This document shows positions 6,500 through 11,053 of a stretch of 12,094 nucleotides of DNA, in pieces. The DNA is taken from the NCBI GenBank assembly GCA_003022745.1, contig PXSU01000119.1, positions 1 through 12,094 of the forward strand, read 5' to 3'. The notes under the pieces were generated by a model. The model worked only from the letters and a program-made list of their open reading frames with translations, did not search any database and was not told the DNA's origin. Origin of the DNA: Halobacteriales archaeon SW_9_67_25. Its GTDB lineage: Archaea > Halobacteriota > Halobacteria > Halobacteriales > Haloarculaceae. A program made the position numbers and the translations under genes. Numbering within the stretch: position 1 is the first letter of the stretch; every line of letters begins with the position of its first letter.

Positions 6500-7783
6500 C
6501 TACCGTCCGTCGCTCCCGTCGACGGTCAGCGCCGCATGGCGCCCGCTCGCCATCGCGCCCTGGATCGAGGACCACTGCGTGTAATCGCCAGCGAGGTACA
6601 CCGGACCATCGGGCGCGTCGACGGCGGGCAGTCGGTCACGGAACCCCGGCGGCTGGTCGAACTGCGCGAACTCGACCCGGTCGGTCGCCAGGAGTTCGAG
6701 GCCGGCAAACTGGTTCTCGGGGAACCACGACGCCAGCGCCTCGCGAACCTCCGCGGCGAGGGCGTCGTCGTCGGCGTCCTGCTGGCCGAGGAAGGTCGCG
6801 CTGAGCAACTGCCGGCCGTCCGGGGCGTACTCGGGTGCGGCGGCCGAGACGGGCGCGACCTGGTTTGGGCGGTCGTCAGCGGCGTTCAACAGGATGCGCG
6901 CGCCGCTTTGCAACTCCTGGGTGGCGGGCACCGCGAGGTGCTGGGTGACACAGCTCCGGGCATCCGTCGGAATCGTGTCGACGCCCGTCAGTGCCCGGGC
7001 AGTGGGAGGATCGGTCGCCACGACCGCCGCATCTGCTGCCACCGTCTCGCCTGGCGTCTCGACGACGACGCCTGCGTCCGTCCCGTCGGCGCCCTCGGGT
7101 TCCACCGCCTCGACTGGTCTGTCTGTGACTACCTCGACCCCCACCGCCCGGGCCTGCGTCCCGAGCTGGGCTGGGATAGCGCCCATCCCCCGGGCGGGCA
7201 CCGCCGTCTCGCCGGCAGCGAGCATCTTGAACGTGTACTCGAAGACCGCCTGAGAGGTCGACAGCGAGCGGTCCAGCGTGATGCCCCCGTAGAAGGGCGC
7301 AGCGAAGTTCTCGACGAACTGCCGGGAAAAGCCCCGCCCGCGCAGGTACGCCTCGATGTTCGTGTCCCCGCCAGACAGGATAACGTCGGGCGATTTCCGG
7401 GCGAGATCACGCCTGAGCGCCAGGACTCGCAGTTTGTCTCGCAGGGTAACTTCGTGGTTGAAAAGCGTCGCCGTCACGGCCGCCGGGTCCCGGAGCGGGT
7501 CCGACAGCGTCGACCGCTCGCCCGGGCGACACAGCGTCGCGCCGGGCGGGAAGGTCCGCAGGTCGAGCGCGTCGAGATCGAGTTCCCGCCGGACCGCGGG
7601 GTAGGCCGTGAACAGGACTTGGAACCCACGGTCGAGCGTGAATCCCTCGACCTGGCGGCTCCGCACGCGCCCGCCGACCGTCTCGCGGCGCTCGAACAGC
7701 GTCACGTCCGCCCCGCGGTCGGACAGCGTCCGGGCCGCGACGAGACCGGCCAGACCGCCACCGACGACCACTACCTCGGTCAT
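6500..7783 (-). CDS. FAD-dependent amine-oxidase/phytoene-desaturase-like oxidoreductase
   Basis: A 427-aa flavoprotein of the amine oxidase / protoporphyrinogen oxidase / carotenoid desaturase superfamily. The N-terminal dinucleotide fold is clear: VVVVGGGLAGLVAARTLSDRG (residues 4-24) and the E of LFERRETVGGRVRS (29-42), which binds the ribose and continues into the second GG-R motif. The C-terminal FAD motif is VYLAGDYTQWSSIQGAMASGRHAA (395-418). The FQVLFTAYP segment (54-62) resembles the subset close to plant and cyanobacterial desaturase-like proteins. The natural substrate is unknown; a carotenoid or amine role is only a family inference. ATG 7783 starts right at the Rossmann strand and has a TATA-like box about 28 bases upstream, so the nine extra upstream codons available in frame are not used. 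No membrane segments. Confidence 0.9.
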   Translation of the reverse strand: MTEVVVVGGGLAGLVAARTLSDRGADVTLFERRETVGGRVRSRQVEGFTLDRGFQVLFTAYPAVRRELDLDALDLRTFPPGATLCRPGERSTLSDPLRDPAAVTATLFNHEVTLRDKLRVLALRRDLARKSPDVILSGGDTNIEAYLRGRGFSRQFVENFAAPFYGGITLDRSLSTSQAVFEYTFKMLAAGETAVPARGMGAIPAQLGTQARAVGVEVVTDRPVEAVEPEGADGTDAGVVVETPGETVAADAAVVATDPPTARALTGVDTIPTDARSCVTQHLAVPATQELQSGARILLNAADDRPNQVAPVSAAAPEYAPDGRQLLSATFLGQQDADDDALAAEVREALASWFPENQFAGLELLATDRVEFAQFDQPPGFRDRLPAVDAPDGPVYLAGDYTQWSSIQGAMASGRHAALTVDGSDGR

Positions 7784-7806
7784 GTGCCCGCCTGCGAGGC
7801 CCACGA

Positions 7807-7815
7807 CCAAAACGG
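7807..7815 (-). promoter_or_regulatory. TATA-like box of the FAD oxidoreductase gene
   Basis: The minus strand reads CCGTTTTGG, with the T run about 26-29 bases before the ATG at 7783. It separates this gene from the zinc-ribbon protein gene upstream (75-bp gap) and supports independent transcription. Confidence 0.5.
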
Positions 7816-7858: not shown

Positions 7859-8521
7859 CTACCGGGGGCCGCCGTCCGCGGCCGGGACGAACCTGGAGGC
7901 GATCCAGCCGATGGCTGCCGCGACCGCCGCGGGAACGGCAACGAACACGAGCAAGGCAAGAAAGGTACTGCCCCGTTCGCCCAGTCCACCCTCGATGTCC
8001 ATGAGCGGGCTGAACGCGATCAGGGGCACGACCAGCAACACGAGGGCAGTCGCGTAGCCACCCTTGGCTATCGCGCCCTGAACGGTCCGGCGACGGGCGA
8101 GATAGACCGTCGAGCCCAGCCACGCACACAGCCCGAACAGCAGTGCCCACGGGCTACCGGTCAGGGCCAGGAGAACGGTCGCCCCCACCACGCCGACGAC
8201 CAGCCCGGTGCCAATCCCGACGACCGCCGTGAGGGTGTCGTCAACCACGCCGTCCGGATCCAGTAGCTGTTCGGTGCCGGTGGCTCCCGCTCCGGGACTG
8301 CCCCCGGCATCTGAAGGGTCGGTCCCGGCGCGGTCCGACGGGCCGGTCCCGGCGCGGTCCGACGGGCCAGTCTCGGTGCTGTCCCACGCGCCGTCTTGGT
8401 CGTCGTCGGCTGCTGCCCGCTCCTCGCTGAGATCCGCCGAGCAGTGCATACAGTAGGTGGCGGTCTGCCCGATGGGCTCGCCACACTCCGGACAGTGCGG
8501 GTCCTCCGGGTCGATACTCAT
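7859..8521 (-). CDS. zinc-ribbon membrane protein, haloarchaeal hypothetical
   Basis: A 220-aa protein with an N-terminal zinc ribbon (CPEC at residues 10-13 and CMHC at 24-27, a CxxC-x10-CxxC arrangement). A low-complexity acidic linker follows (about 35-90), containing two identical GPSDRAGT octapeptides (52-67) flanked by degenerate copies. Four probable membrane helices come next at about 98-118, 120-142, 156-173 and 184-208. The zinc ribbon would face the cytoplasm if the first helix inserts conventionally. Proteins of this plan are common in haloarchaea with no known function; I infer membrane location and zinc binding only. ATG 8521 directly precedes the ribbon. There is no TATA-like box at the standard -27 position; direct repeats of ACAGTTACT at 8585-8604 lie about 65-85 bases upstream. 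It is followed, same strand, by the FAD oxidoreductase gene, which appears to have its own promoter. Confidence 0.82.
   Translation of the reverse strand: MSIDPEDPHCPECGEPIGQTATYCMHCSADLSEERAAADDDQDGAWDSTETGPSDRAGTGPSDRAGTDPSDAGGSPGAGATGTEQLLDPDGVVDDTLTAVVGIGTGLVVGVVGATVLLALTGSPWALLFGLCAWLGSTVYLARRRTVQGAIAKGGYATALVLLVVPLIAFSPLMDIEGGLGERGSTFLALLVFVAVPAAVAAAIGWIASRFVPAADGGPR
8321..8368. repeat. two perfect 24-bp tandem repeats inside the zinc-ribbon protein gene
   Basis: Unit 8321-8344 is repeated exactly at 8345-8368. Each unit encodes the octapeptide GPSDRAGT in the linker, so gain or loss of copies keeps the frame. The flanks encode degenerate octapeptides in the same register (GAWDSTET before, DPSDAGGS after). 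Confidence 0.9.
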
Positions 8522-8584
8522 CGCACCGCCCCGCTGGTCGGTCTCGGCAGTGTCATTACGTCCCGTTTCAGGTTCTTACTCGGA

Positions 8585-8606
8585 ACAGTTACTTTACAGT
8601 TACTGT
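8585..8606. promoter_or_regulatory. tandem ACAGTTACT sites, possible operator
   Basis: ACAGTTACT occurs at 8585-8593 and again at 8596-8604, a period of 11 bases (about one helical turn). The second copy extends to a perfect palindrome, ACAGT-T-ACTGT (8596-8606). A further TTACT stands at 8576-8580. The AT-rich island lies between the zinc-ribbon gene start (8521) and the histidine kinase stop (8646), so the zinc-ribbon gene is the only gene it could control. Function is inferred from pattern. Confidence 0.45.
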
Positions 8607-8645
8607 GGGAACGGCCGGACCGGCGGGGCGCACAGCGGCCCCCAC

Positions 8646-9710
8646 TCACGTGGTGGATTCGACACCGCGGAATTCGAAGCGGGCGCCGCCCGCGTCGCCC
8701 TCGGTCAGCCGGACCGACCAGCCGTGGGCCTCGACGGTCTCCCTGACGATATTGAGCCCGAAGCCCGTCCCCTCCGTCCGGGTCGAGTAGCCCGCCTCGA
8801 AGACGTGCTCGCGCTCGTCGGGGGGAATGCCGGGACCGTCGTCCGAGACGTAGAACCCACCGTCGTCCAGTTCACCCACCCTGACGGTCACGTCGGCCCC
8901 GCCATGCTCGACGGCGTCGTCGGGCCCTGCCCGACTGCTCGTGGAACCGTGCTCGACGGCGTTCCGGATCAGATTCTCCAGCAGTTGCTGGAGGCGACTG
9001 CGGTCGGCCAGCACCGTGCGGTCGGCGTCGACCTCCAAGGTCGCCCCGGCCGTCTCGACGGTCTCCCAGCAGTCCTCGACGGCCGCGGCCAGATCGACCG
9101 GGCGCGTGTCGGTCGCGCGGTCACCCTGGCGGGCAAGGGTGAGCACATCGTCGATCAGCGACTCCATGCGCCCGAGAGCACGGTCGACAGCCGCGAGGTG
9201 GTCGTCGTCGCGGCCCTCCCGTGCGAGTTCGAGTCGCCCCATTGCGACGTTGAGCGGGTTCTTCAGGTCGTGGCTCACCACCGAGGCGAACCCGTCGAGG
9301 CGCTCGTTCTGGCGCTCCAGGTCCCGCGCCCGCTGTTTCTCGCCGGTGACCTCCCGCTGTGTCCCGACGTAGTTGGTCACGGTCCCACTCTCGTCGCGCA
9401 CCGGGGCGATGGAGACCCGGCTCCAGAACAGTTCGCCGTCCGCGCGGTAGTTGCGGAGGTCGACCTGGACCGGTCGGTCCGCGTCGATTGCACGGCGCAT
9501 CTCCCTGACGGGTGCCTCCGCGGTGGCCGGGCCCTGCAGGAACCGGCAGTTCCGGCCGAGTACCTCCTCACGGTCGTAGCCGGTCAGTTCCAGGAACGCC
9601 CGGTTCACGTCGACTATGGGATTGTCTTCGCGGTCTGGATCGGTTATCACGACCCCGATGGGCGCCTCCTGCAGTGCCCGGGATCGAACCGACGGAGGCG
9701 GGTCGGCCAT
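8646..9710 (-). CDS. LOV/PAS-domain sensor histidine kinase
   Basis: A cytoplasmic two-component sensor kinase of 354 aa with no membrane segments. Residues 10-125 form a PAS domain of the LOV type: GRNCRFLQG (52-60) carries the photoreactive Cys55, Arg56 and Gln59 of the GxNCRFLQ flavin signature; LRNYRADGELFW (85-96) carries the first FMN-binding Asn87; and GTQREVT (116-122) supplies Gln118. The second expected Asn (FWN) is Ser97. The kinase part follows: H box VVSHDLKNPLN (144-154) with His147, N box LLENLIRNAVEHG (243-255) with Asn250, G1 DDGPGIP (290-296) and G2 GTGFGLN (314-320). It likely senses blue light or redox through flavin and autophosphorylates. No receiver or response-regulator gene is nearby, so its partner is elsewhere. 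The start is ATG 9710, with a TATA-like T run at -27. It is divergent from the threonine-synthase-like gene across 161 bases. Confidence 0.93.
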   Translation of the reverse strand: MADPPPSVRSRALQEAPIGVVITDPDREDNPIVDVNRAFLELTGYDREEVLGRNCRFLQGPATAEAPVREMRRAIDADRPVQVDLRNYRADGELFWSRVSIAPVRDESGTVTNYVGTQREVTGEKQRARDLERQNERLDGFASVVSHDLKNPLNVAMGRLELAREGRDDDHLAAVDRALGRMESLIDDVLTLARQGDRATDTRPVDLAAAVEDCWETVETAGATLEVDADRTVLADRSRLQQLLENLIRNAVEHGSTSSRAGPDDAVEHGGADVTVRVGELDDGGFYVSDDGPGIPPDEREHVFEAGYSTRTEGTGFGLNIVRETVEAHGWSVRLTEGDAGGARFEFRGVESTT

Positions 9711-9871: not shown

Positions 9872-11053
9872 ATGGAGACCTCCGAGCGGTTCGTGTCGTT
9901 GCGGTGTCTCGACTGCGGCGGGAAGCAGTCCCCCGAACCGGGTGGCCGGTGTCCCGACTGTGGCGGTCCCCTGGACCCCTCCTACGACGTCGACCCGTCG
10001 GCGGTGACCCGCGAGGGCCTCGCTGCCGGCGGGGACGGTCTCGCCGCATTCGCTCCTGTCCTCCCGTTTCCGGGCGAGACCCTGGTCACCGCCGGCGAGG
10101 GGAACACGCCGCTGGTCGAGCTGCCGTCACTTGCCGAAGAACTCGGCGTCCGGGCGGTCTACGTCAAAGACGAGGGACACAACACCACCGGCGCGTTCGT
10201 CGACCGCGGGATGGCACTGGCGGTGACGGCGGCCCGCGAGGCCGGCGCCGGGACCATGGCGCTCCCGTCGATGGGCAACGGCGGCCAGGCCGCGGCCGCC
10301 TACGCCGCCCGGGCCGGGCTGGACTGCCAGGCGTTCGTCCCGTCCCGCGTCCCGTTCGTCAACAAGGCGATGGTGAACGTCCACGGCGGGGACATGTCGG
10401 TCGTCGAGGGGCGCTACACCGACGCCGCCGACGCGTTCGCGGACGCGGTGGCCGGCGAGGACTGGCACTCCGTGGCCCCCTTCGAATCGCCGTACCGCCA
10501 CGAAGGCGCGAAGACGCTCGCCTACGAGATCGCCGCGGGACTGGACTGGACTGCCCCCGACGCCATCGTCCACCCCACGGGCCACGGGACCGGTCTCGTC
10601 GGCCTCCGGAAGGGGGGTGCCGACCTCGTCGACTGGGGGCTGGTCGAGACGGCACCACGGCTGTGCGCTGCCCAGCCGGCAGGGTGTGCACCCATCGCGG
10701 AGGCGTGGACCGAGGGGGCGGACGTGCCCGAACCCCCCGAGCACCCGGACACCGTCTGCGGGCCGCTGGAGATCCCCGACCCGGCCGGTGGAGCGTACGC
10801 GCTCGACGCCCTGGCAGCGACGGACGGGGCCGCCGTCGCGACCGGCGACGAGGCCATCCTCGACGGGGCTGTCACCGTCGCCGAGGGCGGCCTGACGATG
10901 GGTGCGACGGGCGGCACTGCCGTGGCCGGGGCCCGCGTCCTCGCCGACAGGGGCGCGTTCGATTCCGACGACGTCGTGGTGCTGGTCAACAGCGTCACCG
11001 GCAACAAGGAGGCCGACCTGCTCCGGAGTCACCTGATGAGTAAGGGGATCTGA
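9872..11053 (+). CDS. threonine-synthase-family PLP protein lacking the catalytic lysine
   Basis: A 393-aa fold-type II PLP protein of the threonine synthase family, which normally turns O-phosphohomoserine into threonine. An N-terminal zinc ribbon (CLDC at 12-15, CPDC at 27-30) is typical of haloarchaeal members. Then come EGNTPLVELPSLAEELG (76-92), YVKDEGHNTTGAFVDRGMA (97-115), SMGNGGQAAAAYAARAGL (133-150), the glycine-rich phosphate loop HPTGHGTGLVGL (234-245) and SVTG (374-377), whose Thr would face the cofactor nitrogen. The motif normally reads KDEG-x-NPTGSFK-DRG, with the lysine forming the PLP Schiff base; here that position is Val110 (codon GTC, 10199-10201). AAG to GTC needs three changes, so a single base error cannot explain it. 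The rest is intact, without stops. It may be a clade-specific pseudoenzyme or a diverged enzyme. Genuine threonine synthase is presumably encoded elsewhere. ATG 9872 has a TATA-like box at -29. Confidence 0.88.
   Translation: METSERFVSLRCLDCGGKQSPEPGGRCPDCGGPLDPSYDVDPSAVTREGLAAGGDGLAAFAPVLPFPGETLVTAGEGNTPLVELPSLAEELGVRAVYVKDEGHNTTGAFVDRGMALAVTAAREAGAGTMALPSMGNGGQAAAAYAARAGLDCQAFVPSRVPFVNKAMVNVHGGDMSVVEGRYTDAADAFADAVAGEDWHSVAPFESPYRHEGAKTLAYEIAAGLDWTAPDAIVHPTGHGTGLVGLRKGGADLVDWGLVETAPRLCAAQPAGCAPIAEAWTEGADVPEPPEHPDTVCGPLEIPDPAGGAYALDALAATDGAAVATGDEAILDGAVTVAEGGLTMGATGGTAVAGARVLADRGAFDSDDVVVLVNSVTGNKEADLLRSHLMSKGI

Follow-up and report, generated by a model that had tools for sequence, protein, structure and literature searches.

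Lysine-less threonine synthase-like proteins of haloarchaea as probable pseudoenzymes

Pseudoenzymes usually arise once, by duplication, and several dead relatives of enzymes connected with pyridoxal phosphate (PLP) have been kept as regulatory subunits (SPTLC1/LCB1, PDX1.2 and the antizyme inhibitor of ODC). The plant tryptophan synthase beta-like protein (TSB-like) belongs, like threonine synthase, to proteins of fold-type II. In the part of the source available to us, it is described as a pseudoenzyme that activates TSA, and this is the nearest precedent that we found for the protein considered here (PMC12727527). The literature searched, in which few subscription journals were covered, yielded no account of a family of haloarchaeal threonine synthases that lacks the lysine. 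A survey of open issues in the annotation of Haloferax, in the portion accessible, contains neither homoserine, thrC nor pyridoxal, and has 'threonine' twice, in references only (PMC8305020). Two further candidate sources were set aside from the portions seen: one has 'pseudoenzyme' only in the title of a reference (PMC8576121), and the other names thrC only within a gene fusion (PMC11237513).

A threonine synthase fold with valine at the Schiff-base position

The window (the whole stretch of DNA that was analysed, 12,094 nucleotides) is part of a bin that is 57.5% complete and comprises 178 contigs; those of its relatives that bear a name are haloarchaea, and loci, genomes, genera and families carry the prefixes L, G, g and f. 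Its features are collected in Table 1. The initial annotation had drawn attention to an open frame of 393 codons with valine at the site of the catalytic lysine, and this is borne out both by the translation, in which residues 99–113 read K99-DEGHNTTGAFV110-DRG113, and by alignment, in which V110 falls without offset on the K of NPTGSFKDRG in three solved threonine synthases (2zsj, 2d1f, 6cgq). As the motif aligns without gaps, an offset lysine nearby is ruled out. The zinc ribbon is also kept, as had been proposed, with all four of its cysteines in place; the four are intact in 151 of 180 lysine-less rows of the alignment, and in 106 of 109 lysine-bearing rows. The same annotation had the phosphate loop and the pyridine-contacting threonine unchanged, and here it needs correcting: the window protein reads PTGHGTG where intact lysine-bearing orthologues (for example L017) read PTGGGVG, and has Ser374 where these have Thr.

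Table 1. Features of the window that bear on the threonine synthase-like gene
Feature	Position	Strand	Basis or remark
ThrC-like protein without Schiff-base lysine, 393 aa (P0001)	9872..11053	+	frame translation, profiles, model, fold matches
Degenerate PLP motif KDEGHNTTGAFVDRG, residues 99–113	10166..10210	+	translation and alignment with relatives
Codon 110, GTC (Val), site of Schiff-base lysine	10199..10201	+	
Zinc-ribbon cysteines C12, C15, C27, C30	9905..9961	+	translation
Altered phosphate loop PTGHGTGL, residues 235–242	10574..10597	+	His238 where intact orthologues have Gly
Ser374 at pyridine-N1 threonine position	10991..10993	+	alignment
Loop PSMGNGGQ, residues 132–139, includes Asn136	10265..10288	+	alignment columns
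Arg209, aligned with substrate-phosphate arginine of ThrC	10496..10498	+	alignment
Constrained stretch, residues 157–181 (R159, K165, A166, M167, N169, G173, V177, R181)	10340..10414	+	
Residues 292–304 (P292, D293, G297, E300, P304 in 180/180 lysine-less rows)	10745..10783	+	
C-terminal constrained segment (D382, R385, L388, G392)	11015..11047	+	alignment columns
Flavin amine oxidase-like gene (PF01593), divergent neighbour	6500..7810	-	marks ancestral locus in many relatives

By profile and fold the protein belongs to the wider family. It matches Pfam PALP (PF00291) with 207.5 bits against a cutoff of 35; its AlphaFold model, built with an alignment of relatives, has a mean pLDDT of 96.9; and the first 21 rows of a Foldseek search of the PDB are all threonine synthases, with a query-normalised TM of 0.91 to 2c2b_A. 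Its best NCBIfam match is to NF006050 (threonine synthase, PRK08197 type), over residues 7–386, and at 293.1 bits this falls under the curated cutoff of 303, just as the match to TIGR00260 (133 bits) falls under 167.1. These cutoffs do not track the lysine, because lysine-bearing L017 passes NF006050 (386.3 bits) and fails TIGR00260 (165.7 bits), whereas L173, with Asn for the catalytic lysine, passes NF006050 with 372.8 bits. Threonine synthase (EC 4.2.3.1) is recognized by the Schiff-base lysine in NPTGSFKDRG, where the window protein has Val110; on the other hand, two marks of a pseudoenzyme, a catalytic residue lost from the homologue of an enzyme and purifying selection on the gene, were found.

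Repeated change at residue 110 within one order

Homologues were obtained from 304 of 308 loci, and 297 distinct proteins were aligned (a sample made by similarity and by choice, so that counts are not prevalences). Position 110 is other than Lys in 182 of them, with 15 different replacements, and no internal stop was reported: besides Lys (115) there are Ala (63), Thr (43), Leu (35), Val (16), Arg (7), Asp (4), Gly (3), two each of Phe, Ser and Ile, and one each of Glu, Gln, Asn, His and Tyr. Six of the 115 lysine rows lie outside the family, namely a canonical ThrC (L003) and a paralogue (L002), both from the window's own genome, and four paralogues of NPTN type. The loss is common to relatives of the window protein, the nearest of which (L008, 77% identity, same genus code) has Arg, followed by L038 and L009 with Leu and Phe, and by L010 and L011 with Val. 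Two things had been named that would overturn the annotation, an offset lysine and a loss in only one sequence; alignments were checked for both, and neither holds.

The fragmentary state of the bin might raise the suspicion of a sequencing or assembly artefact. Against this, the change from AAG to GTC takes three base substitutions, and the same site has lost its lysine, in favour of various residues, in many other genomes, including four that consist of a single contig (G004, G013, G029 and G031), so that artefact or chance is very unlikely, to the point of being negligible. With these relatives, loss of the lysine across the family no longer depends on the window.

How often the state of residue 110 has changed was estimated from a quick IQ-TREE analysis of 294 rows, from which the active-site columns were left out so that convergent decay could not group rows. 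At least 10 changes between lysine and non-lysine are needed (at least four on an earlier, smaller tree of 133 rows), or 20 if lysine was never regained, falling to 16 once weak branches are collapsed; these counts cannot separate loss from regain, and parts of the backbone have weak support (33 for the largest of the lysine-less groups). With only strongly supported (starred) branches, nine independent pairs differ in lysine state. Recent losses are nested within genera: L173 has Asn beside L172 with Lys (g27), L184 has Thr beside L183 with Lys (g26), L245 has Arg beside L233 with Lys (g73), L191 has Thr among g26, and Ala or Thr occurs in g22 beside L027. Both members of the pairs L172/L173, L183/L184 and L233/L245 have the same divergent amine-oxidase gene. 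The placing of L012, which has the complete active-site signature, among Ala-bearing g4 relatives suggests that lysine was retained there while separate losses took place around it.

Two other genera show unusual combinations. In g12 (L109, L120, L127) Lys110 is present together with degraded phosphate loops (PQEGTDG, PLDGTAG, PLEGTEG) and Asp in place of Asn136; the lysine may have been regained by drift in a probably dead pocket, or the decay may be late, two histories that are inseparable here. In g28 (L150, L152, L156, L289, L290) the lysine is kept, in the motif TSKDRG, and Gly238 is already Thr or Ala; these rows are surrounded by sisters in which residue 110 is Thr, Arg or Ala.

The gene is nearly ubiquitous in the order. 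Matches at E <= 1e-70, some of which may be to paralogues, occur in 375 of 392 sampled Halobacteriales genomes (339 of the 344 good ones), and of 125 genomes in one family 124 contain a match, with exactly one in the case of 118. In a phylum-wide sample of 294 genomes, queried with lysine-bearing L017, the matches listed from outside the order are about 33–41% identical. Where the upstream flank extends for at least 1.4 kb, the divergent flavin amine-oxidase gene lies directly upstream of the lysine-less gene at 91 of 139 loci and of the lysine-bearing gene at 38 of 96, making the two genes direct neighbours in 129 of 235. In the window they are about 2 kb apart, with genes for a PAS histidine kinase and a zinc-ribbon protein (7859–9710) in between. 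The arrangement is not universal (in f7 none of the 15 loci without the lysine and 5 of the 16 with it show it, and in f17 none of seven). In f4 the neighbour is present at 9 of 11 lysine-less copies and at none of 18 lysine-bearing copies; since the latter are at another locus while the former keep the neighbour, some genera of f4 have a separate lysine-bearing paralogue. Genomes of this family with two copies include G306 (L249 and L250) and G434 (L219 and L254), and in the two-copy genera the lysine-bearing paralogue is accompanied by a copy with Leu, Val or Ile110, mostly at the ancestral locus.

No pathway emerges from the neighbouring genes (amine oxidase, DnaJ, LysE, metallophosphoesterase), which we take as conserved order only. 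A gene for a LysE-type translocator often follows the ThrC-like gene, in one set of loci at 23 of 86; examples are L105, L120, L123 and L339, on the last of which the Pfam match was confirmed. The LysE family includes amino-acid exporters, and the ThrC-like gene could be linked to the export of threonine or homoserine.

Is threonine synthase activity provided elsewhere in these genomes? A separate canonical ThrC was found in all 88 good genomes and in 114 of the 116 relatives overall, the genome of the window being counted on a partial match; its lysine was confirmed in L003, L340, L344 and six others. Haloferax volcanii offers some indirect evidence: in the part of the source available, a transposon mutant in HVO_2969 (thrC3), a single mutant, fails to grow on single amino acids and is restored by Gly+Ser+Thr (PMC4300041). 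The adjacent number, HVO_2970, is OxsR, a TrmB-family protein with Cys24, again from a source available in part (PMC9426492). In two genomes that appear to be Haloferax, a 125-aa protein that would fit OxsR (its residue 24 is a cysteine if translation begins at the second Met) adjoins the lysine-bearing 436-aa ThrC (L340, L344), and no OxsR-like protein is in the ORF lists around the lysine-less copy. The map position had led to a suspicion that HVO_2969 was the lysine-less gene, which this order of neighbours rules out as far as the two sources go. We infer that HVO_2969 is the canonical ThrC, and hence that the lysine-less copy, which such relatives of laboratory models do carry, did not replace it in H. 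volcanii. The lysine-less gene of H. volcanii would be the orthologue with Leu for Lys that adjoins the amine-oxidase gene.

Decay of the cofactor site and constraint elsewhere

The initial annotation had only the catalytic residue lost from an otherwise maintained protein. This picture fits some recent losses, but over the full set of lysine-less rows it is the entire PLP pocket that decays. Ten columns were taken to contact PLP, on the basis of threonine synthase structures and the literature on ThrC, and were picked after column tables had been inspected; they show 280 changes in lysine-less and 14 in lysine-bearing rows, compared with 10491 and 4192 in all other columns (Fisher p 5e-25), and 239 versus 14 if column 110 is left out. 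Gly238 of the phosphate loop is kept in only 12 of 180 lysine-less rows (104 of 109 lysine-bearing), Thr374 in 94 (109 of 109), and Asn136, which we take to be the contact of PLP O3', in 121 (106 of 109). A change at 238 or 241 need not alone abolish phosphate binding, because the canonical ThrC L003 has Asn at both. In the nine independent pairs, Gly238 was lost in the same direction as the lysine in about 5.4 and never in the opposite one (median sign-test p 0.0625, short of 0.05), the figures for Gly241 and Thr374 being 0.5 and 2.8. In L173, a recent loss, nearly all the remaining PLP-site residues are intact, and to judge from these it is possible that this protein still binds PLP.

Might another lysine, such as Lys99 or Lys165, or one from a partner protein, form the Schiff base? 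In favour of the suggestion (made for both in the annotation), all 180 lysine-less rows have Lys165 and 173 have Lys99, but the two are just as conserved in lysine-bearing orthologues and occur in canonical ThrC L003. Nor has lysine become common at any new position: the only columns where it reaches 60% among the lysine-less rows are 99, 165, 214 and 379, and these are lysine in lysine-bearing rows too. Together with the tendency of Gly238 to disappear along with Lys110, this leaves such an enzyme only a slender chance.

An enzyme that works with no Schiff-base lysine at all, its cleft binding PMP, PLP as external aldimine or no PLP, and other residues carrying out acid–base chemistry, is unlikely, though less remote. 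PLP-fold enzymes of the ColD type, with His for Lys, use PMP; the fold of the window protein is predicted to be intact; and Thr106, Asp111, Arg112, Gly135 and Arg209 (the last presumably in the position of the arginine for substrate phosphate in ThrC) are nearly invariant in the 180 lysine-less rows. What tells against it is the wide variation of residue 110, which in lysine-less rows has changed 41 times (the median column 25 times; it ranks 105th of 393), never in lysine-bearing rows, and which has no single replacement; in addition, many rows depart from the intact phosphate loop and from Thr374, and no new conserved polar residue of the pocket was noticed in the alignment columns. Asp111 and Arg112, which adjoin this variable residue, show no change in lysine-less and lysine-bearing rows alike.

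The protein as a whole is under purifying selection. Estimated by the Nei–Gojobori method for pairs of 75–98.5% identity with dS of 0.2–1.5 (pairs that overlap phylogenetically), the median dN/dS of 457 lysine-less pairs was 0.192; it was 0.234 among 1292 lysine-bearing pairs and 0.203 among 294 mixed ones. If the gene were decaying under relaxed selection after becoming redundant, and had been caught at different stages, one might point to the degrading PLP site, to the ratio of 0.342 between the window protein and L008, which is less constrained than the median, and to L142; yet the lysine-less median is not above the lysine-bearing one, the 297 proteins have no reported internal stop, the gene is widely retained, and many columns are unchanged in 180 lysine-less rows. 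For the clade as a whole we reject decay on the ratios and the unchanged columns, and even in a wider sense it seems highly improbable. L142 itself, from the complete, single-contig genome G007, does look degenerate: a very divergent short copy of 358 aa, on an end branch of 1.85, with several otherwise conserved residues changed, it is possibly a gene in decay.

Sixteen positions (Thr106, Asp111, Arg112, Gly135, Arg159, Lys165, Met167, Asn169, Arg209, Pro292, Asp293, Gly297, Glu300, Asp326, Asp382 and Arg385) are kept in no fewer than 176 of the 180 lysine-less rows and in every one of the 70 lysine-bearing rows that share their clade, N169, P292, D293, G297, E300 and R385 being kept in 179–180 of the lysine-less rows and Arg209 in 176. 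Most of the 43 lysine rows outside the clade (they comprise 28 rows of f4, the four of NPTN type and a small number of possible true orthologues misplaced by a weak root) differ at N169, P292, G297 and E300; D293 is kept in 19 of them and R385 in 38, and the other listed residues are mostly kept. Constraint that is common to lysine-bearing and lysine-less orthologues, and partly absent elsewhere, would fit a lysine-independent function older than the losses.

A proposed role and comparison with known systems

We consider that the window protein is probably a pseudoenzyme, with a full-length threonine synthase fold, orthologous to a lysine-bearing PLP protein and deprived of Schiff-base catalysis. 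The original proposal of a pseudoenzyme thus stands in respect of a lysine lost from a maintained protein, and lost in relatives too, but not in respect of an otherwise intact PLP site. The selected role would be non-catalytic, and already present in the lysine-bearing orthologues. By elimination of the other possibilities, the protein might act as a regulatory or scaffold subunit, most likely binding a metabolite in what is left of the cleft, a partner protein through residues 157–181, 292–304 and 382–392, or both; catalysis would have become redundant first, after which the lysine was repeatedly lost.

More tentatively, and with rather less than even confidence, we suggest that a core protein of haloarchaea gained a second, lysine-independent function (metabolite sensing or control of a partner) while still a PLP enzyme, and that this function keeps the gene while the lysine is repeatedly discarded and the site drifts, perhaps back to lysine in g12. 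Counting strongly supported branches only, at least nine independent changes are concerned, and regains could be among them. If this is true, the haloarchaea provide a natural replicate experiment on the passage from enzyme to regulator. In one archaeal order, and in one mostly single-copy gene, the catalytic residue has been lost repeatedly while sister lineages still bear the lysine, so that the sequence in which lysine, phosphate loop and pyridine contact changed is readable and testable. Some haloarchaeal proteins that are 'threonine synthases' by profile cannot be ordinary ones (L173 reaches 373 bits, the cutoff being 303), and a conserved haloarchaeal function awaits discovery.

How, then, does the protein compare with described systems? 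With ThrC of the PRK08197 type (NF006050) it has the fold, the zinc ribbon and the PALP domain in common; it differs in the missing Schiff-base lysine, in the altered phosphate loop and pyridine contact, and in the presence of a separate canonical ThrC in its genome. The lysine-bearing haloarchaeal orthologues (L017, L172, L183) have the same amine-oxidase neighbour and the same constrained residues, with 55–57% identity to the window protein, but retain FKDRG, GGGVG and Thr374, and are probably catalytic. SPTLC1/LCB1, PDX1.2 and the ODC antizyme inhibitor have other folds and known partners, and we know of no repeated inactivation across one order for any of them. The plant TSB-like protein, in the part of its description available, is likewise a non-catalytic paralogue of a PLP enzyme, which allosterically activates its partner, but it belongs to a different family, arose by change of two key residues and has a known partner, TSA (PMC12727527).
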